Below, piece by piece: positions 8,796-62,709 of a stretch of 64,000 nucleotides of DNA; position 1 is the stretch's first letter, and the number at the start of each line of letters is the position of its first letter. The position numbers and the translations under genes were made by a program. The DNA is from Hygrocybe punicea (Eukaryota > Basidiomycota > Agaricomycetes > Agaricales > Hygrophoraceae), in the NCBI GenBank assembly GCA_963556145.1, contig OY744470.1, positions 4,898,001-4,962,000 on the forward strand, given 5' to 3'. The notes beneath the pieces were generated by a model, which saw only the letters and a list, made by a program, of their open reading frames with translations, did not search any database and was not told where the DNA came from.

Positions 8796-10570
8796 CTAGT
8801 CTTCACCATCATCAGTTAACTGGACATATCCCACATTACATTTGATATTAATCCTTGTCATTGTATTGAGAGAAGGGTGAGGTGTCTTGATTCAACTTAT
8901 CATCGCATTCTGTGTATACATTAGTTATTATTCATTGAATTGATATGTTTGTTACCTCAGTAAACTCACTGTTGACCAGCGCTAATGAGCGCATATTGAG
9001 AATCATCTTGAATTGGTCATTCTAAACTGGAACTGCTGATACTGTTATCTGGATTTCTACAATGTCACCAATCCTGAAGCAAGTCGGACTGGCAGGTACA
9101 AAGCTATCATCTATGTCATTATTGATAGCCAAACTATTGTTGTGCTGAGCACTCACCAATGCCGTCCTCCATCTGATGTCAACTTGAAATAAAGGACCTC
9201 ATTGTATGTCCCATGGAAGTTTTGACTATTGCTCATAGATGACAGTAGGCCTTTTGGATTGACATTGTGTTTGAATGGAATATTGTATGAAACTTTGTCA
9301 TGTCGGTGGTCAGTGAAATATCGGGTGCCAATAGATAATGCAGTGCATTCAATATAGGTGGTTGACGTGAAGTCCACCATGGCACATTCTGGGAAATGAT
9401 GGCCAAGTTTCTGGTGTAAGATTCGGAGGTTGTCAATATATGATTTGAATAATGGTATGTTGAGGCCTGTGATAAGGATGCTTTGACAGAGAAATGGTGT
9501 TTGACGTTCGGGCGGTCTGAAAAACATATGTATATTAATTGTCTATGATTCTATATGTTGAAATAATCTACCTGCTGATGACCGGTGGTAGGTCTTTGGC
9601 CACCAATATCACCTGTAAGCTTAAGACAAGCTCTTCATGCTCAGTGGTATCGGTGCTCAGCCATGTAAGTTTCCAGCAATGCGGTGAGTCATTGTGCACT
9701 ACATTGATATTCAAAATCTGCAAATATAATGAAACACAGTGTACATCATAAGAATTGAACATACATTTGTAGAATTGGCAAGTTGGCTGTCATTGTTGTC
9801 CATCTGTGTAGATATGAGATTGCTTAAATGTTCAGCTGTAAAGTAGAGTTGAATATATGAATGCCTTTAGTGGTATATGTACTGACATGCAGTTTTGAAA
9901 TCGTAATAGGTGTCCATTTGCCAAGTAGAAGTAGGAGGTGTAATTCATGCACCATTTCTGACTGTTATATCATGAATTGTTTGTGATCATTATTGATATT
10001 ATGACAGTGCATCATGTTTATTCTCCATGAACTTGTGATGTTTGTATGGTGTTTGCATTCTTGTGTTGCAGATCTTCTCAATAGATTCCTATTGTTTTCC
10101 TCCATTTTTATAGGACATGATATACATCCACAGCTATCCGCAGTGCTTGACCTCCTTATTGTACAGCATTAAAAGGAAACCCCTATCCATTCAGAATGTT
10201 TCTTTCTGATGCAAGTGTCAGTATAGTTGATCCAATGTTTGTATTTGTTTGGCAATGAGTATATATGTCAGATAAATTTCTATTTTCTGTTTGGCGGTGT
10301 TATGATCTTATGATCCGCTCCATGTGGTGACAGCTGTTCTACATTCCCAAACCCTAATTAGACTTAGTGTTTGATTATTTTGCATACCAGTAATCCATAT
10401 CCATGTTGTTGGATGACACTGAGCGTAACAGCTGGTCAATCATCACTTCTATATCATGAGGAATGTCCCTGATTTTTTGCATTTTTATGGTGCTATGATC
10501 CAAATAGTTCTCCTTCAAACCATCAGCAGATGTAGTCTTTGTACCTGTTGGTGTGATATCTATAAACAAC
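8796..10570 (-). pseudogene. cassette gene 1, copy L (conserved multi-exon family, function unknown)
   Basis: Minus-strand exons match gene 1 of copy R in order. They are an exon ending MDTYYDFKT (near 9905); 9762-9568 with HEELVLSLQVILVAKDLPP; 9527-9153 with the hallmark IGTRYFTDHRHD and NPKGLLSSMSNSQNFHG; one ending MRSLALVNSEFTE near 8960; and a last exon ending at TAG 8798-8796. The frame is kept through the main exons, so the family was selected as protein. The 5' exons are hard to match and no start is certain, hence the pseudogene label. Next to last is a segment resembling an OB-fold strand set in copy R. It is divergent from gene 2. Confidence 0.6.
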
Positions 10571-10696
10571 TTCTTTATTGTTTTTGATCTGTCTCAGTGT
10601 ACTTAAATAGCGTTGAGAGCAAAATGGTATCATCCACATCTGACCCTTTATATCTCACACAGATTTGTTTCTCACCTTAAAGCTCTTATCTTTGCA
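10571..10696. promoter_or_regulatory. shared promoter interval of genes 1 and 2, copy L
   Basis: This lies between the 5' part of gene 1 (minus) and the likely start of gene 2 (plus). In copy R the same interval is only about 87 bp, so the two genes are probably driven by one short bidirectional promoter. I see no recognisable operator. Confidence 0.4.
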
Positions 10697-13600
10697 CTGG
10701 CCCCTAAGAAGTCTGTGAATGTGAAGACTCACTCCAAAGCTAGATCAAGTGCCATTTCATATGTATATTTGTTTTCATGTAGTGCTGTTCGTTCTGAACA
10801 GAGGTCATACTGTTGTTTCTAGGAAGGGTAAGAAGGTCACCCCCACCAAGCTTGTCGATGAAGAAGTGTATGTGTCTATTCCAATATTTTGAGTCATCCA
10901 CTGTGACTAAACTCCCAGCAGTATTCCCAACTCCAAAGACAAAGACATTATTAGTGTTCATAGCACTGCTAGCATTGCCACACCCATCTCATCTATGAGG
11001 TGTGTCTCATCAATTCTATTTTTCAGATACCATTGATTTACTTCAGTAATATAGGCAGTCCAGGAAGCCCATCAATAGAGCAATGCTTGCAAGTTTAATT
11101 TATATGGTTCATGTGATCTAATATTCTTTATATTCAGCAGGATAAAGCGGTATGCTTCAGAGGAAGATGATGACAGGTTAGTAGCTCTAAATAATGTTTT
11201 TTATATTTGTGTATTCTTTAATCATTTTATCTAGTAAATTCTCTTCTCCATCGAAGAAGACAAAGTCAAACCAGCATCAATTACACAATGAGGATGACGA
11301 CAGTGACGAAATATTCATGTGAGTGGGCAATGGAATACCTGGTCATATGTTAGACATCATGTTGCAGGCCTATCGCAAAACTCGAATTCGGTTCTAAGAA
11401 ATCAAATGCAGATAATGGTCTTCGGTATGGTACTTCATATGATTCATGTCCTTCATATATTAATAAATCATCAGTAACTCTGATACAGCTGTCAAAATGT
11501 TGAAGGTGATTTCGTCCAAAGTCACAAAGACTACCCGCATTCGTGATATCAGCAACAACAACATGTCCAGTAGTGATGATGAAGCTGTGACATATGCACA
11601 AAACCAAATCACCAGGTACATTACATCTCTCTATTATTTATTTAATTGATGTCCTTGCTTTAGCATACACCCTCCAAACATGTATGAGTCCGACATTGGT
11701 ACAAGAGACCCTCAGTTGGTCGATACATATAAGGACTGTGTCAACATTAAGTAACTAATTGGTTTTATCTTCTTAATCAATGCTAAATATTGAATAGGGC
11801 AGCGGCCATGGTAACTTGGTCTAGTGCTATAGAGAATGGCAATCCTCAGTACAGCGATGTCATCAGCAACATTCGCAAGGTCAACCAAAAGTAAGCTGCC
11901 ATCTAGGACTTTACTGTGAAAGACAATTCACATTGCATAACAGTTTGCTGTTCTCCGCAGTGACCTTTGTTTGATCTGGCAAGTACTCAAATCTTTCTCG
12001 TGACGATCCCACCAATATCTCTACTGGAGCGTTTGGGCGTACTTTCTTTCACTCCATTGCTGGTGCCATCTCAACGATCTTCACTTCTGTCATTCTAGTC
12101 AATTCATGTTTCCTTGATGAGCCAAAAGTTGGTGGGAACATGAAACTGATCTAAGTCATCCATGGGGCTTTACTTTTAGGAAAATGGGAGCGATATGTTG
12201 GCGCCATTGGAATGGTCACTGGCGAGGCAGAATTTCGTGCACAACTATATAAGGACTTTTTGTCCTTCTCCACGATGGCAGCAAGTGGGATGGATGCTTC
12301 TCCTAGCAGTGAGTATACTGTCAATCCTTACTCATATTCACTAGAAGCGTCATCTTTGAAATTTGTGCAGTCTAGTCCTCTTACTCGATGTCCTGCTCCA
12401 TCTTACCAAAAGACTGCACTTTCACTTGTTTAGTGGGCCAGTGCTGTGCATGGCATGAACGAGTTCTTTTTTCCCCCTTCTCACTTCCATGATGAAGTAA
12501 ACAATAACATTAAATTGCATAAAGCATGTTACATGTGGTATAAGACATATAGCATATGTTGTGTATTGATAAGCCCACCTCTCATCATAGCAACATACAA
12601 AGTAGAAAAAATAAAACTACATAGTGTGTCTTGAGTGTTCTGTACTGCATCATTATGCAATATTCTCAATCAAAAGAGAGAGCAATAGGACAACTGTCAA
12701 ATACAACTGCCCCTAAACAGTATAATAACAATTGACTTACATTTGCTCAACCCTACTTCTCTATAACCTTGAATGCTGCACAACAGATGATAACATGAAG
12801 ATAGCTGTGCTTGAGTGGGCCAATGTTGCATATGGCATGAACAAAGTCTTGTTTTCACATTGGATTTTTATTTGTATGATTGTTATTATAAACATCGACA
12901 AGTGATGTTGCTTGAAATATATAATTAGCATGAAAGATAATGTCTGTACGATAATATCACATTGAATTTTATGTTTTATTGCTGTTTTCAAAATGCATGA
13001 CTTTTGTTGAAAAATAAATCTAAAGAATTGCTGAATATGTACAGCCCTCATTGATCTCCTCTTGTCATCCAACATTGACTCAAGTAAACACTTACCAGTG
13101 CTACCATATATAGAAACTTTCTCAAGATTATGATCCTTTGTGCTTTGAAAGATTTATATATATATCTGAGTTAAGCTTATTTGTACTTATATAGCTGATA
13201 TTTCCATATACAGTAACAGTGATTACATGTAAGTATGACTCATGTGATCAGCTCAAAATTTAGCATATATGGTATAAAATTACCTTATATGGTTAGACTA
13301 GTCACATGTGACTGTCACTATTACGATCAGCAAAAAATTTGCTATACAATATCAAAAATTACTTTATATGGTTAGAGCAGTCATATGTGACTGTCACACC
13401 TGCCTGAAATGGTTATATTAGTCAGCAGTTCAATTTTCAGCTGATTCTGATAAGAATTGAGACCAGTATGAATATTTTGAATATAATTGGAAGGTAATTT
13501 GTCTTTTCTGAGGCAACCCATATTTGGATGCTTATGTAAGCTTGTCCACACATGGCTAGGACCACATGTTATTTTTCAGTATTGTTAAACAAGTAGAATC

Positions 13601-14009
13601 ATATCTTTTGCCCAAAAAAAAAGTCCCCTACATACGATCAACTTCATTAATTAATTAATTACGAACCCTCACTGAACCAGGTCTGATAAAGAACGAGTCT
13701 TTTAATAAATTAAAAGAACTCGTAATTCCATGACATTGGTTAGTTTTATTTTCTCTCTCACAAAGGTGCTTGGTTTCGTTTTTGATGTTTGTATTCATAG
13801 TCCCAATCTATGATGGCCGGAAAGTTAAAACCGACTTTACTGACTCCCTCAAAATACTTTAGCAACTCCCCCACTTTCCAGGTGATGTCCCTGCAGAATC
13901 CTGCATTGTGGTCGGTCACACAATCAATATGTTCAAACACTCTGATGATTTGTTGAAGAGTATTTCCCTAAATGTGCAGTGGGTGATTGTATTGGGCATC
14001 TCTCATTAA
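10697..14009 (+). pseudogene. cassette gene 2, copy L, interrupted by X1
   Basis: The predicted start reads CTG-GCC-CCT-AAG-AAG where copy R has ATG-CCT-CCC-AAG-AAG, so the start codon appears lost. Short basic and acidic exons follow at 11140-11890. The conserved core runs about 11965-12310 and includes NISTGAFGRTFFHS, CFLDEPKVGG and QLYKDFLSFSTMAASGMD. In-frame TGA 11972-11974 and TAA 12152-12154 break it relative to copy R. A further exon ends near 12420, where X1 is inserted. The last exon (about 13795-14009) encodes VPIYDGRKVKTDF in copy R's register and VVGHTINMFK, ending at TAA 14007-14009. The products resemble nuclear proteins only in the basic N-terminus; function unknown. Confidence 0.6.
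12424..13724 (-). mobile_element. X-family repeat X1 (hairpin-ended)
   Basis: 1,301 bp inserted in gene 2. In its own orientation (minus) it starts TACGAGTTCTTTTAAT with an immediate stem-loop and ends CACTAAACAAGT. Comparison with copy R puts it directly after ...AAT with no clear target duplication. The inner part has repeated GTCACATGTGAC palindromes, shared with X2. A second internal copy of the GGCCCAC terminus lies near 12815. It encodes no protein I recognise. Confidence 0.7.
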
Positions 14010-14193: not shown

Positions 14194-17100
14194 TCAAAAA
14201 TATGAGTATGGATTTGTAATATCTACAAGCCATTTATAAAATACAGTCGAAAATGTGTCCACAAAAGAACCGATTGGTGCCCGACGAGTGGATTTCGCAC
14301 CTTGCACAGGGTGCACAGTAGCATACCATGTCACACAGTATCTTGAAAGTACTTGACAAGTATACTAAATATCATTACCAGAACTTTCAGCATGGTATTG
14401 TAACAGTATTCAGATATAAACTACAATACTTGTGCTCAAATTCATCTGAAAGTATGAAGGAAAATGAGACTTATACCTTTTCAATAACATCAAGCCTTTT
14501 GTTTCACTACTTTTACTGTATTTACAGCAAAGTGCTGTATAGTTTGGATAGAATACTTGCAGCCTAAGATGAATCAAAGTATTAAACCAGTAAGGAAGTT
14601 GGGGCACTTTTACTATTAGGATACCTTTTGAATCCTATCAAGATACAGGATGAAATAGTATAGTACTGTTGCCATATTTTGGATTTAAGATACTTTGTCA
14701 ATACTTTTAAGATACTATTTCAATACTTTTAAGGTACTCTTTCAACGCATCTAAGATACTGTTTCAATATCCTTAAAGAACTTTGAAAAATAGTATAGTA
14801 CTGCTTCAATACTGTTCAGATACTTTGCAAAATGGTATTGGACAGTTATTTAATGCTAAAACCCAGGGAAATATGGGGCTGGGAATTAGGATTCTGAAGT
14901 TCTGGGAATTCTGAGAGTTGGAATTGCAATACTGGGAATGCTAGGATTGGGCATTTCAAAGTGCAGGCTTTGGGATTCTGAGAATTGTAATTCCAAGTGT
15001 TTGAGAAGTTTGGAAAGTAGAATTCTGAAATTGTGGGAGATTAGGGATTTGGAATTCAACAATTATGAGAATTGAAATCCTGGAAATGTGCATATTAATG
15101 AAAATTCCAAGAATGGGAATCCAAATTCAGGAAATTGGGAATCCAGATTCAGGAGATTGGGAATCCAGATGCGGGGAATTGGGAATCCATTCCATACAAT
15201 TACGTGCAATTCCTCGGTCCAAGAGTGGCTCAGCTGTATTTGTGTCGACTGCAGCAAGCTCAAAAGACAATTCCGTGCAAATTCCAACCAATTCCAACCA
15301 ATTCCGTGCAATTCCTCGGTCCACGAGTGGCTCAGCAGTATTTGTGTCGACTGCAGCAAGCTCAAAAGACAATTCCGTGCAAATTCCAACCAATTCCCAA
15401 CAATTCCATGCAATTCCTTGCTCTCCGAGTGGCTCAGCTGTATTTGTGATGTGTCCTGTGAGCTCAAAAGACAATTCCGTGCAAATTCCAACCAATTCCC
15501 AACAATTTCGTGCAATTCCTCGGTCCACGAGTGGCTCAGCTGTATTTGTGTCGACTGCAGCAAGCTCAAAAGACAATTCCGTGCAAATTCCAACCAATTC
15601 CAAACAATTCCATGCAATTCCTTGCTCTCCAAGTGGCTCAGCTGTATTTGTGATGTGTCCTGTGAGCTCAAAAGACAATTCCGTGCAAATTCCAACCAAT
15701 TCCAAACAATTCCATGCAATTCCTAGGTCCACGAGTGGCTCAGCAGTATTTGTGTCGACTGCAGCAAGCTCAAAAGACAATTCCGTGCAAATTCCAACCA
15801 ATTCCAAACAATTCCATGCAATTCCTCGGTCCTCGAGTGGCTGAGCAGTATTCGTGATGAGTCGTGTGAGCTCAAAGGACAATTCCGTTCAAATTCCAAC
15901 CAATTTCAAACAATTCCGTGCAATTCCTCGATCCACGAGTGGCTCAGCAGTATTTGTGATGTGTCCTGTGAGCTCAAAAGAGAATTCCATGCAAATTCCA
16001 ACCAATTCCAAACAATTCCATGCAATTCCTCGATCTGTCTTCTGAGCTCACTGCAGTCGACACAAATACTGCTGAGTCACTCGTGGACTGAGGAATTGCA
16101 CAGAATTGTTTGGAATTGGTTGGAATTTGCACGGAATTGTCTTTTGAGCTTGCTGCAGTCGTCACAAATACTGCTGAGCCACTCGTGGACCGAGGAATTG
16201 CACGGAATTGTTTGGAATTGGTTGGAATTTGCATGGAATTCTCTTTTGAGCTCACAGGACACATCACAAATACTGCTGAGCCACTCGTGGATCGAGGAAT
16301 TGCACGGAATTGTTTGAAATTGGTTGGAATTTGAACGGAATTGTCCTTTGAGCTCACACGACTCATCACGAATACTGCTCAGCCACTCGAGGACCGAGGA
16401 ATTGCATGGAATTGTTTGGAATGGATTCCCAATTCCCCGCATCTGGATTCCCAATCTGCTGAATCTGGATTCCCAATTTCCTGCATTTGGATTCCCAATC
16501 TTGGAATTTGCATTAATATGCACATTTTCAGGATTTCAATTCTCATCATTGTTGACTTCCAAATCCCTAATCTCCCAAAATTTCAGAATTCTACTTTCCA
16601 AACTTCTCAAACTCTTGGAATTACAATTCTCAGAATCCCAAAGCCTGCACTTTGAAATGCTCATTCCTAGCATTCCCAGTATTGCAATTCCAATTCTCAG
16701 AATTCCCAGAACTTCAGAATCCTAATTCCCAGCCCCATATTTCCCTGGGTTTTAGTATTAAATAACTGTCCAATACCATTTTGCAAAGTATCTGAACAGT
16801 ATTGAAGCAGTACTATACTATTTTTCAAAGTTCTTTAAGGATATTGAAACAGTATCTTAGATGCGTTGAAAGAGTACCTTAAAAGTATTGAAATAGTATC
16901 TTAAAAGTATTGACAAAGTATCTTAAATCCAAAATATGGCAACAGTACTATACTATTTCATCCTGTATCTTGATAGGATTCAAAAGGTATCCTAATAGTA
17001 AAAGTGCCCCAACTTCCTTACTGGTTTAATACTTTGATTCATCTTAGGCTGCAAGTATTCTATCCAAACTATACAGCACTTTGCTGTAAATACAGTAAAA

Positions 17101-18999
17101 GTAGTGAAACAAAAGGCTTGATGTTATTGAAAAGGTATAAGTCTCATTTTCCTTCATACTTTCAGATGAATTTGAGCACAAGTATTGTAGTTTATATCTG
17201 AATACTGTTACAATACCATGCTGAAAGTTCTGGTAATGATATTTAGTATACTTGTCAAGTACTTTCAAGATACTGTGTGACATGGTATGCTACTGTGCAC
17301 CCTGTGTTGCTTCATGTTGGACCACAAGCTGCAGGTGTGATACCATTCAATCTCATTCATGAAGTAATGGACATTGTTGGTGTTTGAATCAACAATGAGC
17401 AAAACGTCCATGTGACAAAATACACTCATTGAAGGTTTCCCACCAATCAATGTTGACTCTATGGCATACAGCCCCTCATAGGTGTCTCGTACGAAGCCGA
17501 AGAATTGCTGTCTTGCTTGATCTCGAATTGCAATGGAGCCGTGATCTGGATTGCAAAGATCAGTCTTCATGAGCACTCTCTGTGCTTGGAACAATCTTGG
17601 AAAATGCGAAAAACCCATGAACATGTAACATGAGATGGGAAACATCTGCTTACCTCAATTCATCTAAAGTATAGAAAGTCGTCACAATATCCCACCTCCA
17701 TGATTTGCTCTCTTCGTTGTAATGTGTATGAACCATGTAAATGTCTCTGCCACCTAACAAAAACACCCACCATTCTCCAATCTTGGCCAGTGGCTCAACA
17801 TAGGTTTGACCGAACCAACGTGAACTGGGACCTCGCAGTTCAGGCACATATAGTCCCAATTCCATCTTGGATCACCCAGGAATAGCACATGGTGGCTGGT
17901 GTCACTATGTGTTCGCTTCAAAACAATGTTTGGTGGAAACGGTTCACCGTCCTTCAGCAGTCTCGATTATGGACGCATCATATGTGTCCTTGACAATGCA
18001 ACATGGAGCAGGTTTTGCATCTGTGTCCATTTCAAATGCACAGTGTTCATTTGTTTCAGTGGTGGCCCCACCTGAACCATTCGACACAGCTCGTCAATTC
18101 CAGCCAAGAACATTGACACGTTTTCCACCATTATACCATATTGATTACTACCATAGAGGAAATTTAAAAGAAACTTGACAAAAACATTTGACATGCTCAC
18201 ATATAGGACATTCCCATGTCCACACCACCAAATACACAATTGGTGGATCTGAATTTGTTCCATGTTATATTTGACCCTGGTGAGTTGAGCATGGCATGGG
18301 TGAACTCTGGCCAAAACATGTATTCAACAGTGAATCAGCATATTGCACTGTTGGGTTCATCACACCACCAGTGGTGCATTCACATAGCAACATAAACCTG
18401 GAATTGAAAGGTATTCTTTAGTGATAATATTCCATACACTTTTAAAATATACAAACCCATTCCTGCATGCAAAGAAAATATCGTGTCTTGTGTGCCTTGA
18501 TATTGTGAATATAACCATTGAGGTGCAAAATGGATTTGTATTCGTCTTGTGAAACCGTAATGTTGACAAATGCAAGATCATTGGTTGTGGCAGCTTTACT
18601 TGTAATGTGGGTGGTGGGATCAAGAACAAAGATTATGTGGAAAACGGGATCATTCCTGATGGTCTGTGTAATCGTGCTCATCGGTGCATCCTCCATCTCA
18701 ACATTGGAAGTTGGATCTGGTGAATTGGACGCCATCGATGGCAACAATGTGAGTCCCTCTTCAGTAGTATTTTGAACACCCATGGAATTTTCTGCACCCT
18801 TCTGTCTAATACAGATGGATAGTGGACAGGTACTGGATGCGATGCAATTTGGATGCTTGCTTGCAGATCCACAATGGCGCTGACAGGAACTTCCTTCCCT
18901 TTTCCAGAGGATGGTTTGTGTCTGCATTGAGATGCAGTTTCATCCTGGACAGATGTGGCAGCACACTTCATAGCCAACTTCCTTGTGAGATTTGGGCAT
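14194..18999 (-). pseudogene. cassette gene 3, copy L, interrupted by a CACTA-like foldback
   Basis: Starts at ATG 18999-18997 (MPKSHKEVGYEV). The Cys-rich N-terminus is broken by TGA 18941-18939 where copy R has Arg. Other exons match copy R: 18927-18442 with DPTTHITSKAAT; 18314-17967; one with WFGQTYVEPLAKIGEWWVF (about 17830-17650); and 17645-17310 with CNPDHGSIAIRDQ and GGKPSMSVFCHMD. Coding is cut after YHTCSLWSNMK at 17307 by the 14305-17306 element. It resumes at 14304-14194 with RRAPIGSFVDTF, ending PYSYF. The C-terminal half looks ATP-grasp-like (see copy R). Convergent with gene 2, divergent from gene 4. Confidence 0.65.
14305..17306. mobile_element. 3.0-kb CACTA-like foldback element
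   Basis: Ends are CACAGGGTGCACAGTAGC and its inverse, continuing as inverted arms of nearly 900 bp (about 14305-15190 and 16420-17306). It is flanked by the 3-bp duplication TTG (14302-14304 and 17307-17309); copy R of gene 3 shows the empty site. CAC ends plus 3-bp duplication fit the CACTA/EnSpm superfamily. The centre is a tandem array of about 108-bp AATTCC-rich units, about eight in one orientation (15200-16050) and three inverted (16060-16400). It has no transposase; long ORFs on both strands come from the repeats. Confidence 0.8.
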
Positions 19000-19209
19000 A
19001 TTGAAAATCTAAAAGATCACATTATGTTAGTGTGTCAATTTGATGGAGTCAGAAATGGTACTGTGATATACCAGTATGTATTCTATAACTCGGGATGTGT
19101 TGTGAGATAGTGGTTGTCAAGGAGAAGAAGAGTTAATCAAGTTTGGATAATCCTTTTGACTATTAATGATATCTGATTCGTGTCAGGTGACAGCAGTGAC
19201 AATGATGCA

Positions 19210-19860
19210 AGACTTCTCTGGTTGGATCGGCAAGTGTTCGACAAGCCTTATCTAAGTTAATATATAAAGTGAAACATATATTAGCTAAGATAAAGCTTGT
19301 CGGACACTTGTCTAACAGTGTTTGGCCTGTTCAACAAGTGTTTGACAAGCCTTATCTAAGTTGATATATGAAGTGAAATATTTATTAGCTTAGATAAAGC
19401 TTGTTGAACACTTGTTGAACACTTGTTGAACACTTGTCGAACAGTGTTCGGCCTGTTTGACAAGTGTTTGACAAGCTTTATCTAAGTTAATATATGAAGT
19501 GAAATATTTATTAGCTTAGATAAAGTAGAATATATATTAGCTCAGATAAAGCTTGTCGAACAGGCCGAACACTGTTTGACAAGTGTTTGACAAGCTTTAT
19601 CTAAGCTAATAAATAAATATTTCACCGCATATATTAACTTAGATAAGGCTTGTCAAACACTTGTCAAACAGGCTGAACACTGTTCGACAAGTGTTCAACA
19701 ACCTTTATCTAAGCTAATAAATATTTCACTTTATATATTAACTTAGATAAGGCTTGTCGAACACTTATGGAACAGGCCAAACACCGTTTGACAAGTGTTC
19801 GACAAGTCATCTCTATGTTAATAAGCATACAATTATATATATTAACATGAAGCATGTTCG
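19210..19860. repeat. palindromic repeat array between genes 3 and 4, copy L
   Basis: It sits in the 1.15-kb divergent interval 19000-20154. Units alternate GTTCGACAAGTGTTCGACAA with TTATCTAAGTTAATATA and their inverses, forming palindromes of about 80 bp. Orientation flips around 19530, so the whole array is roughly mirror-symmetric. Recurrent cores are TGTTCGG, CAAGTGTTCGACAAG and CTTATCTAAG. Copy R has a different array in the same place. It could bind a cassette protein or act as an origin-like or hairpin structure; no function is shown. I see no gene in the interval. Confidence 0.8.
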
Positions 19861-21559: not shown

Positions 21560-22597
21560 TACGAGTTCTTTTAATAAATTAAAAGACTCATTCTTTATGA
21601 GACCTGGTTCAGTGAGGGTTCGTAATTAATTAATTAATTAATGTTCGTGCATCGCCTATAGAGAAAATTTTTTTGGGCAAGAGATATGATTCTACTTCTG
21701 ATACTGGAAAGTCAGATACAGTTGGGGCCATGTGTGGACAAGCTTACATAAGCATCCAAATATAGGTTGTTGCAAAAAAGACAAATTACCTTCCAATTAT
21801 ATTCAAAATATTCATACTGGTCTCAATTCTTATCAGAATCAGCTGAAAATTGAACTGCTGACTAATATTATCATTTCGGATCAGGTGTGACAGTGACATG
21901 TGACCAATCTAACCATATAAGGCAATTTTTGATATTATATAGCAAATTTTTTGCTGATCGCAATGGTGACAGTCACATGTGACCAGTCTAACCATATAAG
22001 GCAATTTTACACCATATATGCTAAATTTTGAGGTAATCACAGGAGTCATAGTCACATGTGACCGCTGTTACTATATATGGAAGTATCAGCCATATAAGCA
22101 GAAATCAGTGTAACTCAGATGATATAATGTTATTTTTACTTAAAACATATACTTCAATGTGATATCACTGTATATATTATATGCCAATTATATATTTCAA
22201 GCAAAATCACTTATCGATGTTCATAATAATCATATGAATAAAAATCTAATGACAGAAACAAGACTTTGTTCATGCCATATGCAACTTTAGTCCACTTAAG
22301 CACAGCTAGCTATCTTTATGTTATCATTGGTTGTGCAGCAAGGTTATGGAGAAGTAGGGTGGAGCAAATGTAAGTCAATTGTTATTATACTGTTTAAAGA
22401 TATATTATTTTACAGTTGACGTGTTGCTCTCTTTTTTGGCTGAGAATAGTACATAATGATGAAGCAAATAACACGCTATGCAGTTTTATTGTTTCTACTT
22501 TTTATGTTGCTACGGTGAGAGGTTGCTATAATGAAAGTGAGGAGGAGAAAAAAAGAACTCGTTCATGCCATGCGCAGCACTGGCCCACTAAACAAGT
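21560..22597 (+). mobile_element. X-family repeat X2
   Basis: 1,038 bp, starting TACGAGTTCTTTTAAT with a terminal stem-loop and ending CACTAAACAAGT. Left flank GAGAAAT and right flank TGACAGTGG join exactly as in copy R (GAGAAATTGACAATGG), so it inserted after AAAT with no duplication I can define. The body shares GTCACATGTGAC palindromes and a second GGCCCAC-like internal end (near 22270) with X1. Non-coding. Confidence 0.75.
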
Positions 22598-22621
22598 TGA
22601 CAGTGGAGGTTCAGCCACCGG

Positions 22622-22778
22622 TGGAGTAGTAGCGAGGGCTGGGTCACGTGACTCAGTTCTCACGGTTCGAGTTGTTTGTCGGTTCCCAAAGTAGCTAGAG
22701 ACCAACCCAACCAATCCACGAGCTTCCAGACTCGAGACTCAGTTCCTCGTTAGACGCCCAAGACTTCGGACCACTCCA
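22622..22778 (+). repeat. 5' LTR of the 22.6-29.0 kb element
   Basis: 157 bp with perfect ends TGGAGT..ACTCCA. It matches the 28812 copy with about ten scattered differences over its length, so the insertion is not recent. Confidence 0.85.
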
Positions 22779-52147: not shown

Positions 52148-52689
52148 CTTGGAATTGAATCATTGACAAGAAAGTAACAGTGATTGACTAGCACATTGAT
52201 AGGTTACCAGAGGTCATGCATGTGAAGTTTGGTGCAGATTGATGTACTCCAAAAGCTTCTGGAGGTGTTGCACGTGGGGGGGTTGCACTGAAAAATTTGG
52301 TTTTTTGTGTGACCATTTTCGGGACTTTTTACACTGTGAACATCTAGACATTATATTCGAACTCTCATATTTCAAACTGCTAAGCTGTACGTTGAGTATT
52401 ACATGAGTTATGGCAATTTTGAGTTGGGCGCTCAAAATGAAGCGTGACTGTGACGTTGGCAAAGTCACATGCAAAACACAATAAATAGTTGAGTGGTTCG
52501 GATCATGAATAACAATTAACACAATGGGATTGACCATATGACATTATATTATTTGTAAGCTCTTCCCAAAACACCATAAGGTGTACCTGAATCTTTAGAA
52601 AGCTGTGTTTACTTTTTTTGTTCCATTGCATGTTCCCATTACATACCTTGATACAGGCCAAAAAAATGCATCTGTACTATGAATAGCTG

Positions 52690-53480
52690 CCTTATGATCT
52701 TAATTAGGGGTCTGGCTGACAAGACATTGATCAAACCAACTGAGAAGAACAATGGTACCCGCTTTAAAGATATTTTGTGGATTTAATCTTCAGAGTCTCA
52801 GTGATATTTCTAGCTTGCTCAACAGACAAAACAGGTATTGAACCATGCTGTTTGACAACTGTGCATGTTTGACAACTGATTGGTAACTCGTGGAAATTAT
52901 CATTGCTCTTCATCCTTGTCAGAAATACATTGTCATCTTTTTGGAGCTGTATGTATCATTCCCACACAAGTATACTGTATTATTCCGGTACCAAATAGTT
53001 AGAGCTCCCCTTGGAGTGATAGTTATATCTTCCACTACAAAAGGGGGATTTGTTACTCTTGTATCATTGTATCCTCATTTAATAGGTCCATAAAGTTCGT
53101 GATTCTGGTTTCTTACATATATTCATTTTGAATTTTCATCAGCCCGAATGAGAGTAATCTAAAGTTGTCCTTCTCAAGTTGAGTGTGTAGGTGGTTGTAC
53201 GACTGAACTGAAAGTAATGCATTCACCAGGATATATTTTAGACAAACAGATTTTCAGTCAACAAGATTGATGCCTTACGCTGTATCTATGCTTACTATCA
53301 TGCTCAATTCTTATGGTCATAGGACAGTAACACAAGCCATTTTTAACGGAGCAAAAAGAAATACATATATAGAAACTGTACAAATGTTAATAGTAGCGAT
53401 GTATGAGGAGGACATTTGAGGGCACAGATTGTCACCAAGTTTCCAGAGATCAACGACTGGGATACAGTCAAATATAATGA
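52690..53480 (-). pseudogene. cassette gene 5, copy R (remnant)
   Basis: Minus-strand pieces: VSICISFCSVKNGLCYCP (about 53380-53330); NDTRVTNPPFVVEDITITPR then ALTIWYRNN (53070-52970); and FLTRMKSNDNFHELPISCQT followed by VLSVEQARNITETLK (about 52950-52790). The pieces shared with copy L keep similar peptides, but stops fall between them. Whether they are exons or decay is unclear. It follows gene 4 on the same strand. Confidence 0.4.
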
Positions 53481-53514
53481 ATACTCCACAAAAGAAGAAC
53501 TTACTCCTCCGAAA

Positions 53515-55445
53515 TTAAGGCCCAGGATCAAGTTTGGATGTTGACGGCTTGGGAGATGAAGGCCTTGTTTGGCTCGGAGGAATTGAGAGTAGGATTTCGG
53601 GTGGAACGATGTTGCTCCAATCCACGTCCATCGATGAAGCGCTGGGCTCCGCAGGGGTCGACGACTGGTGGCGTGACGATGCACGCGTATTGGGACGGAA
53701 TCCTAGGACATGGAGAAGATCAGAATTGGAATATATATAGCCTATGATGTAATGTTGAAATACATACCTGGAGTCGGAGACTTCTTTGGTGGCTTCACCA
53801 GGTTGAGCTTCTCTGCAATAATGCCCGCTTGCTCCAAAGCAACATCCAATTTCCTCCTCTTTGCCATCTCACCGTCCTCGTGACCATTGCTGGGAGACAC
53901 CTTTTCGGGTTCAGGAGGTCCATCGTCGTTGTCCATGGGTATATCATTATCAACATCCAACAACCCCACCCACTCTGGTCCTAAAATGTCCAACTTCGCG
54001 GATTCCGGTGCCACAACATCCGGCTTGGGGGCGATGGATGGCTTAATCTCCATTGTCAATTTCTCCAATGCCGATTGCCGGGTTGTGCGCGACGACCCAA
54101 TTTCAACAGCGACTGCGAGATGTCAGTGCATTAATCATAACAAGGTGAGCAACATACGCATTTGGGCCTTGGACCGCTTCTTCATTACTGGGGCTACGTC
54201 CTCCTCCATCTTTATGTCGTCTATACATGAATAAATGTGTTGGATTATCATTTTGATATTCGGAATTCAATAACTCACCCTCAACATCGTCCTCAGCTTT
54301 GGACTTGATTGTGTGTTCTGTCATGATGAAGGGTTTGCATGTATGACAATCACAGACAATGAAAGTACTTACTGGACTTGGGCTTGGGCTTGGGCTTGGG
54401 CTTCTTTTGTCCTTCTCGGACGAATTGTCAGCGCCACCTGAATATTCAATGCATCTATACACTGCTATGGTTGAAAATTTGTACAAACCAGCGGAAGATG
54501 CCATCTGTTTTTTGACCGATTTTGACTTGGCTTTGCCCTTGCCCTTGCCCTGGGGAACCGGCTGCTCTGCAAATGTATTATATCATTAGCACAATCACAC
54601 ATGTAATTCTAGATCACACCTTCATCATCGTTGGCCACATCAGCATCGACAAGGACACTATGTCCTTTACACCAAGCAATAACATGACTGATGATTTCGA
54701 GCTTTGTGGCGTCCGGAAGCCCACCAAACGACCAATTTGCAGAGGTTCCGCTGTGCCATGCTGGCACAGATTCGTCATATTTTGTCCAATCTATGATCCC
54801 AGACGTGTGAATTCATTTGGCCAGAAATGCATATATATACTCACCTAGGTCCTCGGGCTTGATCTCGGTGTTCACGGCGCCATGTTGAATCAAAGCCGAT
54901 GGAGAATGTTTCCCGACATAAAATTCTTTCAGGAGCCAATCGTCGAAGATCTTGCTTTGCCAGTCACGGGTAACCTCATTTGCCCATTTCGCCACCAAGA
55001 CTTCTGCCCAAATTTCATCCATGACGGTGTCGGTATACTTGAGGTAATCCTGAAGTGAATCGGTCCCTTCCTTATCATTTTTGACGTAGTCTGGCGAGTA
55101 GTGGGGTGCCTTGTTGTATGTGATGGCAGCTGTCGCGTAGATGTACATATCCATTTGATAAATCAAGCGACGGAGCGGTTCCTCGTATCGTTCAGGCATT
55201 TCGCGCCATAACTCGCCTCGGGCAGTGGCATCGTGGGGGTGTGTCTTCAGTACATAGAGATTACGAGAAGATATGGGAACGGTGCCAGATTCCTTGTTGG
55301 GTGCCGGAATCTTGGGTGGGACCATGTACTGGATTTGGAAGATGTGATGGAGCTCCTGCAGCTTTTTGGGCGGCGCATCAGGCCAGTACTTGAAGCCTGC
55401 AGGATTGATGGCAGGAGTCGAGGTTTTGATGATGGGCAAGGACAT
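53515..55445 (-). CDS. cassette gene 4, copy R (conserved nuclear-type protein)
   Basis: I choose Met 55445 (MSLPIIKTSTPAINPAGFKY) because copy L starts there too; the frame extends upstream to 55523. Exon 1 (55445 to about 54845) is a conserved domain with HHIFQIQYMVPP, LKTHPHDATARGELWREMPE, ERYEEPLRRLIYQMDMYIYA, and IFDDWLLKEFYVGKHSPSAL. Exon 2 (54790-54620) has DWTKYDESVPAWHSGTSANW and VIAWCKGHSVLVDADVA. Small exons are Lys/Pro/Ser-rich (a PSPSPSPSP run near 54390). Exon 54110-53764 has an acidic patch and AKRRKLDVA, a possible nuclear signal. The last exon ends SIPPSQTRPSSPKPSTSKLD, stop TAA 53517-53515. No clear lesion in the main exons. Function unknown. Confidence 0.65.
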
Positions 55446-55739
55446 GGTAGATGAAATAAAAGTTTTTGGTCGATGTGTGAGACAATTTGAGGGCAAAAGA
55501 AAAAGGGCGGATTTATTACTCAACGCTCCAGACTATGAATACAGATGTCACGACCACATGACCAGATCAATCGACACATGTTCGACCTCATGTTCGGCTT
55601 GTTTGCATTACCAGATCTATTTATATATGTTTTTGTGTGGCGTGAGCTTAGAAGTTGTCCAGTGCTAGTACTTGCACGCAGACAAACCCACATGTAACAT
55701 ATTGAATATCTTTCATGATAAGGTGATGTATTGAGTTAT

Positions 55740-56600
55740 GTTGTTTGATGAATATGGATTGGGTTATGTTCAGTGGATGTCTGTCAACCGGTGTGACTAG
55801 ATATATTACACTGAACACATCGAACATGTTCGGTGTGTTCGGTGGAGATGTTCGGTGGATGTCTGTCAACCAGTGTGACTAGATATATTACACCGAACAC
55901 ATCGAACATGTTCGGTGTGTTCGGTGGAGATGTTCGGTGGATGTCAAACAACGGTTGTGACTAGATATACTACACCGAACACATCGAACATGTTCGGTGT
56001 GTTCGGTGGAGATGTTTGGTGGATGTCAACCAACCGTTATGAGGAGATGTATTACACCGAATACATCGAACATGTTCGGTGTGTTCGGTGGACATGTTCG
56101 GTGGATGTCTGTCAACCGGTGTGGCTAGATATACTACACTGAACACATCGAACATGTTTGATGTGTTTGGTGGACATGTTTGGTGTAGTATACCTAGCTG
56201 TATCAATCCAACAACGCCCACCAAACATGTCCACCAAACAATCCGAACATGTTCGATGTGTTCGGTTTAGTATATCTCCTCAAAATGGTTGGTTGACATC
56301 CACCAAACATGTCCACCGAACACACCAAACATGTCCGATGTGTTCGGTGTAATATATCTAGTCTTAACGGTTGGTTGACATCCACCGAACATGTCCACCG
56401 AACACATCAAACATGTTCGATGTGTTTGGTGTAGTATATCTAGTCACAACCGTTGGTTGACATCCACCGAACATCTCCACCAAACACACCGAACATGTTC
56501 GATGTGTTCAGTGTAGTATATCTCCTCATAATGGTTGGTTGACATTTACAGAACATCTCCACCGAACACACCGAACACGTCTGATCTGTTCAGTAGATAT
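55740..56600. repeat. palindromic repeat array between genes 3 and 4, copy R
   Basis: About eight units of roughly 95-110 bp lie in the divergent interval 55446-56848. Four in the left half read GTGACTAGATATATTACACC, GAACACATCGAACATGTTCG, GTGTGTTCGGTGGAGATG and ATGTCTGTCAACCGG. Four in the right half are inverted, the flip being near 56200. Core CGAACATGTTCG is itself a palindrome. It occupies the same place as the copy L array but has different monomers. Remaining sequence of the interval shows nothing recognisable. Confidence 0.85.
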
Positions 56601-56848
56601 TGCTCTTTCAAGACATTTAAATGATTCCATTGCTGATCAATGTGTTTGGCACATGTTTGTTGTTTTATCATTGCCACTCTTGTCAGGTGACATAATTCCG
56701 ACGTCTTATAATTAGAAGGTTTGTGGAATTGTCACCACCCTCCATCAACCACCCTGAAAGTAATCAATTATTAAGGTATTGATGTATTAATTATATCCCT
56801 GTCTGTTCCTCATACCACCCATCCGAAATCCTGCCTAGGTCCACAAAC

Positions 56849-58671
56849 ATGCCATATAAGAAGGAACTTGGTTATGAACTTTGCATGCACATCTGCCCTG
56901 GTCGAAAATGCAACTCTCCGAAAACGAAATCTCTTTTGTGGAAGAAAGAAGGCAACTCCTGCCAAAGACATGCCGGATTCGCAAAGCAACATCCCAAATG
57001 CGTTTTGTCTGGAATCTGTCCGCAATCGGTATGTCTTGGTTGCAACATACGTGAAAATTGGCAGGGTGTCTGCAATGCGATGGCCGCCAAACTCGATCTC
57101 CTTCCACGCAAAATGCTATCATCCAACTCTGAGATGGAAACATCATCTGACTGTGAAATGGAACCACCAACCACTGTAAGCAACAATGAACGCCGTATAA
57201 CCACATTAAGCAACAATGACGGCCGTGTTTTCAAAATGCTCTTTATCCTTGACCCAATGACTCGTATCACGAGCAAAGCTGCAGCCGTTAATGATCTTGC
57301 CTTCGTCACCACGACCATTTCCGAAATTGAACTCGAAACCATTTCCCATCTTGATGGTTACGTCCATATCATCAAATCATACAAGAGTCGCTATTCAGCA
57401 TGTATTCCAGAATGGGTAATGTCTATTGTTTAATTTGTGGATTGTTGATACTGAAATGCATTTCACAACAAACAGGTTTATATCGGTATGCGACTACATC
57501 ATGAGGATGGAGCCCGGCGCTTCAATGTCAAATACATATTTTGGCCCAAGTTCCTTCACGCAATACTTCGCTATCAAGACAAAGGCGATACGTGGCAAAA
57601 GTTCACATCGGCAGATTGTGTATTTGGTGGTGTGGATATGGGAATGTCATACATGTATGTTTGTCATCGCTTTAATTAATTCTGCTCCGTTTTCGCTGCA
57701 TTATACTGATGTCTTGACAGCAGTAACCAATACGGATTGACACTGGAAAATGTGTCAATTTTCATGACTGGCATGGACGAACTCTGTCAAACGGTACACA
57801 TCTGGCCGCCTCCGAAGCAGATGAACACGGTCCATTCAAAATGGATACAAAATCAAAACTTGCTTCATGTCGCTTTGAACGTAACGCATACGATACGCCC
57901 CCAAGCAAAATTATTAAACGATGGCGACCAATTCCCACCGAATATTGTCTTGAAATGGACACACAGCGACACCAGTCATCACGTCCTATTACCTGGTGAC
58001 CCCAAGTGAAATTGGGAATACATGCGTAATAACTGTGAAGTTCCAGGTTCACGTTGGTTTGGGCAAACATACATCGAACCACTGAGCAAGATGGGCGAAT
58101 GGCGTGTTTTTCTAGTTGGTGGAAAGGTCGTGTATACAGTGCACACACTGTACAACAAGGAAAGCAAGTCTTGGAAGTGGGATATTGTCTCGAGTTTCTA
58201 TACCTTGGACGAATTAAGGTGAGTGGCCTACACCTTCATTTGTCATATCATTTTCATGATTATCTTAACTTTCTCAGAATATTTCAAATGCAGGGGACTC
58301 TATTGAAGATGGTCACTTGCAATCCAGACAGGGGCACCATTTCTATTCGAGAGCAAGGCAGAAATGAGTTCTTCGATTTTGTCCAAAAGACCTACAAAGG
58401 GCTTTATGCGATCGAGTCCAATATGGTTGGTGGAAAACCATCGATGAGTGTCTTTTACCATATGGACATATCGCTCATTGTAGATTCCAAAACGGACACT
58501 GTGTCGTATTTCGTGAACGAGGTGGAACGTTATCACACATGCAGCCTCTGGTCGAACATGAAGTCAGGTCCGAAATCCATTCGAGCACCCATTGGCTCAT
58601 TGGCAGACACTTTTGCAGGAGTTTTTTATAAATGGTTGGTTGACATCAAAGGTCCATACTCATATTTGTAA
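56849..58671 (+). pseudogene. cassette gene 3, copy R (Cys-rich, ATP-grasp-like)
   Basis: Exon 1 (56849-57415) has a zinc-ribbon-like N-terminus with about nine Cys (CMHICPGRKC, HPKC, SGICPQSVCLGC), then IFILDP-type strands (LFILDPMTRITSKAAAVNDL). Exon 2 (57476-57654) has VKYIFWPKFLHAILRYQDKG. Exon 3 from about 57719 leads to IVLKWTHSDTSHHVLLPGDP, then SRWFGQTYIEPLSKMGEWRV and FLVGGKVVYTVHT. The last exon (about 58278-58671) has GGKPSMSVFYHMDISLIVD. The K-x-S-x-HV...GEWRVF-VGG series is what an ATP-grasp nucleotide site looks like. TGA 58007-58009 stands where copy L has TGG, so this copy is disabled. Confidence 0.65.
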
Positions 58672-58759
58672 TATTATCTGTACAGTCAATGGAATGGTTC
58701 GCTTTTATTCACAAGACAGATGTAAGATACAAAAATATAAATGATGCTAAGTGAAGCAA

Positions 58760-60781
58760 TCATTTCGGCACTCCCAAGACCATGACCCATTGCACATTGA
58801 GTGAAATGCTCTTCATCATGTCATCTACACGCTTGAATGTATTGATGGTATGTCCAACAATGACACAGGATCCTGCAGGGATATTGTGCGGGAAGATGGG
58901 TAGTTGCTGGAGCGATATGAGAGTGGACGTGAAGTCCGCTTTGACTTTGCGTGCATCATAGATGGGCACTGACAACACATACTTAAGATATCATTTTATA
59001 TTAGACGACCGAATGCTTACCAATATCGTAAAATGATAGAGCGGCCTTATTATAAGATGGAGTGGGTCAACGAGTGAATAGACTAAGTTGTACATTTTTG
59101 GATGTTGATGCCTCTATGAAAATTGATTAAAAATTACAACTAGAAAAGATTAATGCACATACTGGGAGATGTATCCATTCCACTTGCTGTGGTCATTGAG
59201 AAGGACACATAGTCCTTATACAGTTGGGCCTGAAATTTGGACTTGCAAATCACCATTCCAATAGCACCGACATATCGCTCCCATTCTCCTTGAAGTGGTG
59301 CACCCTGTATAACCTTGACCAGCTTTGTATTGCCACCAATCTTGGGCTCATCGAGAAAGCAGGACTCCACTATGATGACCGATGTAAAGATTGTCGGCAT
59401 TCCACCTCTGACTGCATGAAAGAAGTTGCGACCGAATGCACCAGTGGAGATATGGGCAGGGTTATCACGAGAGAGATTAGAGTACCTCTCAGATCTAGCA
59501 AAGGTAATGGCGGAAAGCAATAACCTATATTATATCAAATGAATTGACTGGATCAACCTCAAATTGTCGTTGAAATAACGTACTTTCTGTTGATCTTGTA
59601 GATGTCAGTGATAATATCACTGAACTGTGGGTTGCCATTTCCAATTGCACTGGACCAAGATACCATTGCTGCAGCCCTAAATGGTTATGAGTAAACGACA
59701 AATGTATGACTGTGATTGCATACTTGATGTTGACGCAGTCTTGGTAGGTGTCAACAAGTTGAGGATCCCTCGTGCCAATATCGGACTCATCAACGTTCGG
59801 AGATGGTAAGCTAGATTCACAACATCTACATCAAACACCACGGTGTAATAACATCCAACACACCTGGTGATCTGCATCAGCGCATAGGTCAGATCTCCTT
59901 CATCGCCACTGGAGCCTTTATCATCGTCGGTATCATTGAGCATGATGGCCTTTGTGGACTTGGACTTCTTGGATGGCATATTAGAAACACTGTTACGATT
60001 AATGAATGGGAATATTCATATCTGCACGTAAGATACACATGAAATTGGCTTATCGGGGTTCTTCATTAAGGCTACTTTGCGACGATGCCTAAACAGTCAA
60101 ACGATTTGTTTGAACAAATGGATGTGTCTATGATAACCGAACAACTCACTTAGAACCGTAATCCTCTTCCGTCTCATGATTGATTAGATGCAGCTTTCAA
60201 TTTCTTGGAGGGGGAAGGCGTTTTACTATGTATAACTTGTCAATAATGAAACAACACCTATGAGAAATATTTACACAGCGTCGTCATTGTCTGTGACATT
60301 GGGAGATGACATTTGACGCTTCTTCCCACTGTAACAAATTGGTATCATGTTAGATATGTTTGCGATTGAAACACTAACATGGCTTTAATGTTGCGGAGCT
60401 TGACGGAATGCCTAGGATATCGATATTTGTTAACTCATGTCAAATGACAAATGATGTGTGATTATATAGATACCTTGTGAGTGTTGATGGTGCCATTACA
60501 CTGCCTGTGCTTTGAATACTGATGGCATCATCACTAGCATCAGACAAAGCCACACTGTCAATTGGTCAAAAGTAGATAACGATTAAAATGATAACACATA
60601 CATATCATCATCAGCCCAAGTCTTGATGACCTTCTTTCGCTTCTCGATTGTTGCAGAAGGCCGTCTTTAGTGCATGCAATAGAAACTTCAGTAATACCGA
60701 GTAAAATAGGTAAACATACATGGTGGCCTTGGGTTTTGCTTTCGAGTTTGATTTCATGGCAGTGGACTTCTTGGGAGGCAT
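58760..60781 (-). pseudogene. cassette gene 2, copy R
   Basis: Starts MPPKKSTAMKSNSKAKPKAT at 60781. Many small basic/acidic exons to about 59680 follow (KKSKSTKAIMLNDTDDDK, DVVNLAYHLRTLMSPILARG). The core exon (59520 to about 59165) has SRDNPAHISTGAFGRNFFHA, CFLDEPKIGGNTKLVKVIQG, GEWERYVGAIGM and QLYKDYVSFSMTTASGMD. The next exon carries TGA 59069-59067 where copy L has TGT. The last (58978-58760) has VPIYDARKVKADFTSTLISL and VIVGHTINTFKRVDDMMKSI, stop TGA 58762-58760. It may bind DNA given the basic tail; no known domain. Convergent with gene 3. Confidence 0.65.
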
Positions 60782-60868
60782 TGGAGAGCGGTCAAAGTTG
60801 ATGGAATAGTGGATGTCATCTCCACTCACACTTTAAATCACTCGAAAACAATAAGATATAAATTTAAG
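60782..60868. promoter_or_regulatory. 87-bp shared promoter of genes 1 and 2, copy R
   Basis: The start codons of gene 2 (60781, minus) and gene 1 (60869, plus) are only 87 bp apart. Any promoter must therefore be bidirectional and very compact. An AAGATATAAATTTAAG stretch near 60850 is AT-rich and TATA-like. Confidence 0.45.
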
Positions 60869-62709
60869 ATGAATTGGTGGATCCAAAATTTCAACAATAA
60901 CATCAGAGGATCCACCATTGGCATATGCTTGTATACCAAACAAGGCGTCTTGGGCCATGTACTCTATGCAAAGTGCAAAGGTATGCATGAAAAACCGATG
61001 ACTGTCCACATGATATTCACCACAAATTTATACTGATAGGTTTCATGAATTGTTGACAAGCTCAATTAAAGTTAGGAATGGAGACTAAACAAAAAGGGGT
61101 ATTCATGAAACAAAATTGCATAATGCCAAATTAAGCAACATGGGGTATACTAACAGATATTGATGAATAATGGATAGGGGTTAATTCCAATGCTGTGCAT
61201 ACATATCCTGTGATGCAGAATTAATGCGGAAAAGCTGGAGTACATGCTTGACTATACCATATCCAAACCAGGCAGCTGACAACCAACATTATATGCAGCA
61301 TTTGAAAGAAATGGAAAGGATCCGTATTATGCAAAATGACGCAAACTTCAATATTCAAGAATGCAAAACAAAAACAAAAAACAAAACAGATCCTGAAAAG
61401 CTAACATCACATCCACATCAAAAACCAATATGGATATGATCGGTGTGAGGATGATGGCCGAAGATAAAATCCACAAAGTGAACGGAAATGTGCCACACAA
61501 TATACATCTCACCACTGCTTTGTACGTGATGGACAACTATTACAACTTCAAGGGTGCATGTTAGCAATATCCACCATATATATACTGGCTAGTATTTGAC
61601 ACCAAATTGACAGCTGAACATCTACAGGAAGTCATATCTGCACGCTTAGATGATGATGAAAGTCAGCTTGCGAAGACCACAAATGTAAGTCATTGGATTT
61701 GAAAAGGTATATCATATTGACCGCATTGCCAGATTTCAAATGTCAATATTGTGCATGTCGACTCTTCAAATTGCTGGAAGTTTACACTTCCAACCAATGA
61801 TGAATCCGAACATCAAGAATTGGTATTAAGTTTGCAAGCGATTTTGGTGGCAAAAGATCTTCCACCCATAACAATCAGGTATGTGCTAAATTCGTATCCA
61901 TTCCTTGAATACCATTCTGATGAACCACTGTAATAGTCAACCGGAACGCCGAATGCCCTTCATACGTCAAAGCATAGTCGTAACTGGCCTTGATACAATG
62001 GGCTTTCAATCCTATATCAATAACCTTCGGATTCTGCACCAGAAACTGGCTCGTCAATTTCCTGACAAAGCAATGCAAGCTTTTACGCCTTCTACATACA
62101 TAGATTACATGGCACTCACAATAGGAACCCGATATTTCACTGATCGCCGACACGACAACTCTTCCCCTCACATTCCATTCGAGCATGCCATCAATCCAAA
62201 AGGCATATTAACCTCACTTGCGAATTCCCACTACTTTCATGGCCAGGACAATTGCGTACTTTATTACAAGTTGAAGTCTGATAGAAATCGACATTGGTGA
62301 GTGACAATGAATTGGAATCATATCCCTACTGATGGAAATATTCATTAGCTTCATTCCAACAAACCCAACTTGCTTTAGAATCGGTGATATAGTGGAGGTT
62401 CAGTTTACAATATCGGCAGTTCCGGTAAAGAAGAATAAATTCAAGATGATTCTGAATCTACGGTCATTGGCACTGGTAGACAGTGACTTCACAGAGGTAA
62501 CACTTCAATACATCAAGAATTAAACGAATACTGATGTATATTCTCAGGAAGCAACTACGATTCGCAACAAGACAGCTTTGCCTACACTAACTACACAGCC
62601 CAAAATAGCGATCAAACAACATGTTGGTTATGTGGAAGAGGGTAATGATGCAGAGGGTGTTGTGGAAACAAGGCAACGCTTCTATAATATGAATATAGAC
62701 CAATGCTAA
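60869..62709 (+). CDS. cassette gene 1, copy R (possible OB-fold C-terminus)
   Basis: Exon 1 starts MNWWIQNFNNNIRGSTIGIC. Following exons are partly unclear (61230-61440). Then come DKIHKVNGNVPHNIHLTTAL and VMDNYYNFK; NVNIVHVDSSNCWKFTLPTN with ELVLSLQAILVAKDLPP; and 61935-62297 with LRILHQKLARQFPDKAMQAF, TIGTRYFTDRRHD, HIPFEHAINPKGIL and DNCVLYYKLKSDRN. The next exon (FRIGDIVEVQFTISAVPVKK, FKMILNLRSLALVDSDFTE) has the strand pattern of an OB fold. The last exon ends at TAA 62707-62709. Main exons are open in both copies. An upstream stop in the 61.2-61.4 kb exon region in some frames leaves integrity uncertain. Possibly a nucleic-acid-binding protein. Confidence 0.6.

Follow-up and report, generated by a model that had tools for sequence, protein, structure and literature searches.

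The cassette of genes that stands twice, in inverted orientation, in this stretch of the Hygrocybe punicea genome is best explained as accessory genes at the 5' side of a giant, autonomous Helitron that measures about 19.3-21.5 kb, a reading to which we give a probability of roughly 93%. The element opens at its 5' end with a terminal hairpin starting TTACGAGTCCC. Genes A (minus strand) and B (plus strand) follow as one back-to-back pair and genes C (minus) and D (plus) as another, the latter flanking a repeat array rich in CGAACA; then come a RepHel encoded as one long gene, an inverted, subterminal repeat of the element's 5' end, and a final CTAG. By the window we mean the whole 64,000-nt stretch analysed (contig OY744470.1, positions 4,898,001-4,962,000, forward strand). 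Comparisons beyond it cover this one fungal genome (92.2 Mb, 42 contigs) and single protein matches in other species.

Two decayed copies in the window

Comparing the window with itself by blastn bore out the inverted duplication described in an earlier, sequence-only reading: nine collinear inverted blocks with 65-91% DNA identity join 8.95-37.8 kb with 52.5-62.5 kb, and the two copies are ~15 kb apart. The blocks pair 8950-9917 with 61529-62502 (65%), 11661-12427 with 59031-59813 (68%), 13799-13996 with 58773-58970 (71%), 14198-14302 with 58566-58667 (73%), 17310-18645 with 57227-58563 (67%), 20095-21560 with 54058-55503 (78%), 30773-31040 with 53754-54010 (78%), 32521-33204 with 53082-53761 (81%) and 37702-37817 with 52482-52597 (91%). 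A translated comparison of the left and right copies matched the same exons. Both copies are decayed pieces of the giant Helitron.

The right copy (52482..64000, minus strand) is 90-94% identical to a young element. It ends at the start of RepHel, and its 5' end lies ~0.9 kb outside the window; in the alignment, reference position 1574 corresponds to window position 64000 and reference 12476 to window 52482. Gene A of this copy (61529..62709, plus strand) is modelled as six exons encoding 305 aa, with ~93% protein identity to the young element copy. Gene B (58760..60781, minus strand), which may be one gene or two, comprises an N-terminal basic part and a 319-aa core with one internal stop. 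Gene C (56849..58671, plus strand) has four exons encoding 545 aa, with one internal stop, and gene D (53515..55445, minus strand) has eight exons, as in the young copy, where it is a single 514-aa gene. The C/D promoter region, which is divergent, holds an array (55766..56594) of inverted and tandem 82-bp units rich in CGAACA.

The left copy is more broken up. Gene A (8824..9917, minus strand) has five stops in 246 aligned codons, the core of gene B (11515..13996, plus strand) is decayed, and so is gene C (14198..19002, minus strand), whose last part is interrupted at ~14305-17306 by a large inserted inverted repeat (arms of 1271 bp at 95% identity around a 102-bp tandem array). An array of 104 and 126 bp units (19231..19846) separates C from gene D (20155..33204, plus strand), which survives as pieces at 20155-21560, 30773-31040 and 32521-33204 with insertions between them. 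The RepHel gene follows in pieces at 37832..46115 (plus strand), covering residues 4-1006 of the young RepHel, with Pfam matches to DUF6570 at 44698-45303 and Helitron_like_N at 45402-46169, both on the plus strand. Stops are now present in left-copy A, B, C and RepHel.

These models confirm that a repeat array occupies the same place, between C and D, in both copies, and they revise the count of five genes to four main genes, with D being one gene and B one or two. The limits first drawn for the unit (8.8-37.7 kb) prove too small, with the left copy running via the broken RepHel gene to 46115 and the right copy extending beyond the window edge at 64000. Position 8796, once taken as the start, is not a cassette end; it adjoins the 3' end (8799) of another related Helitron (8620..8799, plus strand) that retains the last residues of a RepHel C-terminal tail and the terminus ..CCCCACTAG. 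Rather than a free-standing cassette, the genes make up the 5' half of a Helitron; its RepHel gene, just downstream, had been overlooked. The foreign Helitron end adjoins the left copy head to tail, with CTAG followed directly by TCTTCACC, and this junction near 8800 is possibly a tandem or self-insertion.

The window also contains other repeats. Remains of yet another Helitron family are seen at 35972-36265 (99 residues that align with the C-terminal tail of RepHel at 34%), and related ~150 bp tandem repeats lie beside two Helitron remnants at 34141-35462 and 46717-47331. Foldback elements of one family occur near both copies (36732-37529 and 62745-63313), the first being a 95% self-palindrome. 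Retrotransposon pieces at 1773-2819, 3807-5825 and 22855-26992 carry Tf2-type SH3 and chromodomain, copia gag and integrase core, and Ty3 capsid and reverse transcriptase domains. A 755-bp direct repeat with 96% identity (31740-32494 and 6974-7728) possibly represents LTRs of one retrotransposon family, and a tRNA-His gene lies at 6623-6696 on the minus strand.

Copy number, ends and insertion sites

Two collinear inverted copies ~15 kb apart could have arisen if a cluster of host genes had simply been duplicated as a segment and inverted within the region. Against this, A, B and C are each present in at least 150 copies in the genome, and so is D (exon 1, the best 150 of 242 candidates scored), with D exon 1 stop-free in 123 of the 150 matches listed. 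The single scattered copies that would have spoken against a mobile unit are thereby not what the genome holds. The two window copies moreover belong to different families, with left A having 86% DNA identity to the type we call A2 and 65% to A1, and right A being 96% identical in DNA to A1. Given also the sharp common ends, the ten different flanks and the empty sites described below, we regard segmental duplication as extremely unlikely.

The order of A-D and their orientation relative to RepHel are fixed. Among the 150 D matches listed, 94 have A upstream on the opposite strand and 110 have RepHel downstream on the same strand, with both at the expected side and strand in 75 (shifted controls, 0-2). 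The 56 D matches that lack a listed A, and the 40 that lack a listed RepHel, could reflect unlisted neighbours, element truncation, or both. Likewise, 122 of the 150 A matches listed are accompanied by B, 120 by C and 109 by both (controls, 0-1).

We took as a reference sample ten plus-strand places of 17.9 kb each from the top identical-score D matches. The downstream half of one of them (L031) is matched by all nine other places over 7.6-9.2 kb at 98.7-99.8% identity; five of the nine match its upstream half over at least 8.1 kb, and the other four over 0.4-6.5 kb. The upstream border common to copies is TTACGAGTCCCTATAAGGGA, with 38 of 39 other places starting no more than 6 bases from it. 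The 3' border is ..GGGACGAGTAACATGCCATGCAAAGCAATGGCCCACACCCCACTAG, and 24 other places, counted by eye, end at it or within 11 bases. Runs of 200 Ns lie inside or beside two element copies (L051 and L052), and a third (L033) has a 200-base break in its match. All three are probably assembly gaps at near-identical repeats, and copy numbers may therefore be underestimated.

Searching the whole genome for the ends, with up to 2 mismatches, returned 367 5' ends and 362 3' ends, and no hits with reversed-pattern controls in either case. Contigs C1-C3 hold 67 exact 5' ends, of which 57 can be paired with a like-oriented 3' end no more than 60 kb away, compared with 10 in a flipped control. Of these end-to-end lengths, 25 fall at 17.7-22.9 kb, and 11 pairs fall at 1.6-5.1 kb (control, 0 within 6 kb). 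The latter, known from their paired ends, look like non-autonomous relatives. At one place on C3 (G000:C3:7321114 and 7321135), two 5' ends are 21 bases apart, which suggests insertion into, or duplication of, an end.

Ten complete elements, defined as those with both ends among the matches listed, were read through both flanks. All span TTACGAGTCCC to CTAG, and their ten different flanks speak against the single flanking context that a copied host segment would share. The base before TTACGAG is a purine in 13 of 13 reads (6 A and 7 G, three further copies included), TT precedes ACGAG in all 13, and T follows CTAG in 11 of 11 reads (one further copy included). The proposal that aligned copies would reveal common ends and target duplications is borne out for the ends; no target-site duplication was found when the flanks of the ten elements were compared, the longest match being 1-3 bases, which we take as chance.

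Empty sites point to the same borders. One element sits in a Gypsy-like repeat, and its flanks, when joined, match uninterrupted sequence at all 40 places scored, most matches covering all 163 bases. They also match inside the window at 2280-2442, and a second, weaker empty site lies in the window array. Insertion in TT or TTTT|T is the Helitron2/Helentron pattern, and TT does precede ACGAG, but the uninterrupted sites are one base shorter than a join between two Ts would give. They thus favour an element that starts with TTACGAG and is inserted between a purine and T over the T|T target assumed at first.

A hairpin forms at the 5' end (z -3.52); at the 3' end the predicted hairpin (z -0.51) does not outdo shuffled sequences. 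The 5' end is repeated in inverted form near the 3' end, with 9 of 11 bases matching, and this 3' copy is subterminal, 35 bases inside the end. From what holds for the Helitron family, RepHel would nick one strand at the 5' end, the nicked strand would peel off as a circle, and the circle would insert between a purine and T.

RepHel, classification and the proteins A-D

D is followed by a single long open frame in which Pfam matches DUF6570 (1.8e-43), Helitron_like_N (1.3e-32) and PIF1 (3.8e-9), and the frame is therefore a Helitron RepHel. HxH, two-tyrosine, Walker A and Walker B motifs are present, and we presume that they have the roles assigned to them. An open frame of 2588-2610 aa is seen in 35 of the 150 RepHel places listed (counted by eye); that of L031 has 2200 codons. 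After the helicase comes a Cys-containing C-terminal region with WSCAYDS and later His and Asp. This tail has no match to a known protease in Pfam or PDB, and its protease nature is for that reason a guess from motifs. Pfam listed no endonuclease domain for the first 1808 residues of the RepHel ORF or for the tail.

The earlier suggestion of an uncharacterised large mobile element holds as to a large mobile element, but the class is a known one. The element has the Helitron combination of a Rep (HUH, two tyrosines) with a PIF1-type helicase, and it inserts without target-site duplication. It departs from canonical Helitron1 in starting with TTACGAG rather than TC, in inserting between a purine and T rather than between A and T, and in its weak 3' hairpin, although its 3' CTAG fits the Helitron1 CTRR. 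As in Helitron2/Helentron elements, it has asymmetric terminal inverted repeats (9 of 11 bases) and a 5' hairpin, with the 3' hairpin unsupported.

Several described systems resemble it in part. In Pleurotus ostreatus, the HELPO1 Helitrons carry the captured genes capA-capF. They too are basidiomycete RepHel elements, their 3' end is CT[A/T]G and they hold one to four additional genes without known function, but they are 1.5-13.7 kb long, start T[C/G] and insert between A and T. Their cap genes lie downstream of RepHel, whereas A-D lie upstream, and the element described here differs further in its size of ~20 kb, its fixed set of about four genes and their measured selection (PMC4289320). The Helitron2-like FoHelis of Fusarium oxysporum (PMC5148889) share an asymmetric terminal inverted repeat, a 5' hairpin and the lack of a TC start, and FoHeli3 has one extra ORF upstream of the transposase gene on the opposite strand; FoHelis are, however, ~5-11 kb long and end ATTTT or CTCCTGT, in contrast to the CTAG end and purine-T site here. 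Helentrons with deubiquitinase domains (PMC9741609) offer a parallel in the Cys-containing C-terminal region after the helicase, but the RepHel tail here is without Pfam or PDB match.

Published fungal Helitrons thus already include some that carry extra genes of unknown function (PMC4289320) and some that have asymmetric terminal repeats (PMC5148889). The element described here is a new form of this known type, a 20-kb Helitron whose accessory genes, about four in number, are selected and keep a constant order, and which is present in many near-identical copies. A limited literature search found no paper on a Helitron with an ATP-grasp or on Agaricomycetes Helitron cargo, and earlier print is possible.

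The four accessory proteins have few relatives. Protein searches gave two matches for A, namely P0001 (Piloderma croceum, 19 member sequences) and P0002 (Infundibulicybe gibba), one for C (P0003) and one for D (P0004). When the A-D models from the window were searched against Pfam, no credible match turned up at E values as high as 1, and no A-D protein reaches the Pfam cut-off. The view that none of the four is a recognisable transposase stands. For A and B there was no usable match for function. C has a Cys-rich N-terminus and, in its second half, a weak ATP-grasp likeness, seen in below-cut-off Pfam matches (RimK, E=0.018 for P0003; GSH-S_ATP, E=0.036 for C). The window copy of C gave no RimK or GSH-S_ATP match, and a PDB search with a profile of C returned unrelated weak matches, none of them to an ATP-grasp. 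From these likenesses, an ATP-grasp in the C-terminal part of C is possible. D has basic stretches that, by eye, resemble nuclear localisation signals. AlphaFold models of P0003 and D exon 1 are of low confidence (mean pLDDT 38.1 and 41.9), and viral-contig scans with D and with P0003 found no relative.

Selection, element types and a possible role for A-D

Comparing the left copy with a young copy gave pN/pS values of 0.35 for A, 0.25 for B, 0.38 for C, 0.26 for D and 0.40 for RepHel, which are approximate, as they share a splicing weakness with the right-copy value for B. That value (0.69) was discarded as a splicing artefact, an exon-by-exon comparison giving 0.32. Right-copy A has a pN/pS of 0.56, on 33 changes only, and a right A exon has 1.60 with a very wide interval; these high values are as expected of a decaying copy and are not evidence of selection. 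Two element types were also compared over pieces read without stops, with the A2 type represented by three pieces of one element. Between them, pS and pN are 0.85 and 0.18 for an A exon (pN/pS 0.21), 0.22 and 0.02 for D exon 1, and 0.036 and 0 for a piece of RepHel. These substitution patterns indicate that A-D evolved under purifying selection, which, with the kept gene order, upholds the idea of a co-inherited, formerly selected unit.

The contrast between A (pS 0.85) and RepHel (0.036) means that A genes which have diverged deeply are found together with nearly the same RepHel. This unequal divergence, with D in between at 0.22, indicates that the two halves have partly separate histories, and it could be read to mean that A-D are a separate, unknown mobile element, with an unrelated Helitron landing in it or next to it and the composite moving by Helitron ends. 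In the ten elements checked, however, both halves lie within a single pair of ends, the left window copy, which is much older, shows this arrangement too, and no further terminal repeats around A-D came to light in the comparisons made; we consider a composite very unlikely.

The types combine unevenly. B1 is present in all 91 A1 copies with a listed B and B2 in all 31 A2 copies with a listed B; C1 is present in all 88 A1 copies, and among 32 A2 copies C1 is found in 17 and C2 in 15. As these counts are of copies and not of independent events, one old exchange could explain the mixing of C, and the simplest reading is that A and B stay together while sequence is exchanged close to the border of B and C.

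Helitrons have mostly been described as a RepHel plus accidental gene fragments, and capture of host genes has often been reported for them. A-D might accordingly be passengers, captured host genes that the Helitron does not need and that were selected in the host before capture or benefit the host now. Short elements, which would lack the cassette, seem to move by means of these ends too, as passengers would allow. The Pleurotus Helitrons with capA-capF offer a precedent (PMC4289320). Set against these points are purifying selection between element types in one genome, with A exons at saturated synonymous change in two intact types, an order fixed in the left copy, type 1 and type 2, and the absence of any accepted host-protein domain in A-D. 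Among the matches listed, which were not chosen with host loci in mind, none was noticed as a solo copy at a host locus. We hold the passenger explanation to be possible but doubtful.

We favour instead accessory genes that would act for the element rather than the host. The most likely role of A-D, by analogy, would be an element-encoded self-regulation or anti-silencing system, with the D or C protein binding the array. The anti-silencing hypothesis comes from the parallel between the array and the targets of VANC proteins. The VANC proteins of plant VANDAL transposons are anti-silencing proteins that bind tandem motifs, and their targets are often tandem repeats that vary between related elements (PMC5735166). 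The likeness lies in tandem arrays that differ between related elements together with an element-encoded accessory protein, seen here as the array and the conserved genes, but VANDALs are another transposon class.

A more tentative extension, which we consider possible but less likely than not, is that these are modular Helitrons. RepHel and the ends would be a conserved engine common to all, and co-adapted, interchangeable modules (a strictly matched A-B pair, and a C-D pair plus the array as its own binding sites) would be swapped between families and provide the transposon with type-specific anti-silencing or immunity. If so, a eukaryotic rolling-circle element would have a functional accessory operon, comparable to the cargo modules of phages. 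Two cassette types on nearly the same RepHel form a natural system in which to ask which extra functions a rolling-circle transposon needs and whether the element fights host silencing, and four protein families without an accepted domain gain a cellular context.

From one family to the other, the array changes in the sequence and the length of its units (82 bp as against 104 and 126 bp). Common to both arrays is CGAACA, with 8 and 31 occurrences (highest shared shuffle count, 5), and TCGAACA occurs 6 and 8 times (shuffles, 3). The control was a plain base shuffle, and a tandem array inflates the counts of any word it holds; because the array multiplies whatever it contains, this sharing is suggestive only. 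In a young element, 22 of the 32 CGAACA-type sites lie in the array, and 4 more lie ~1 kb from the 5' end.
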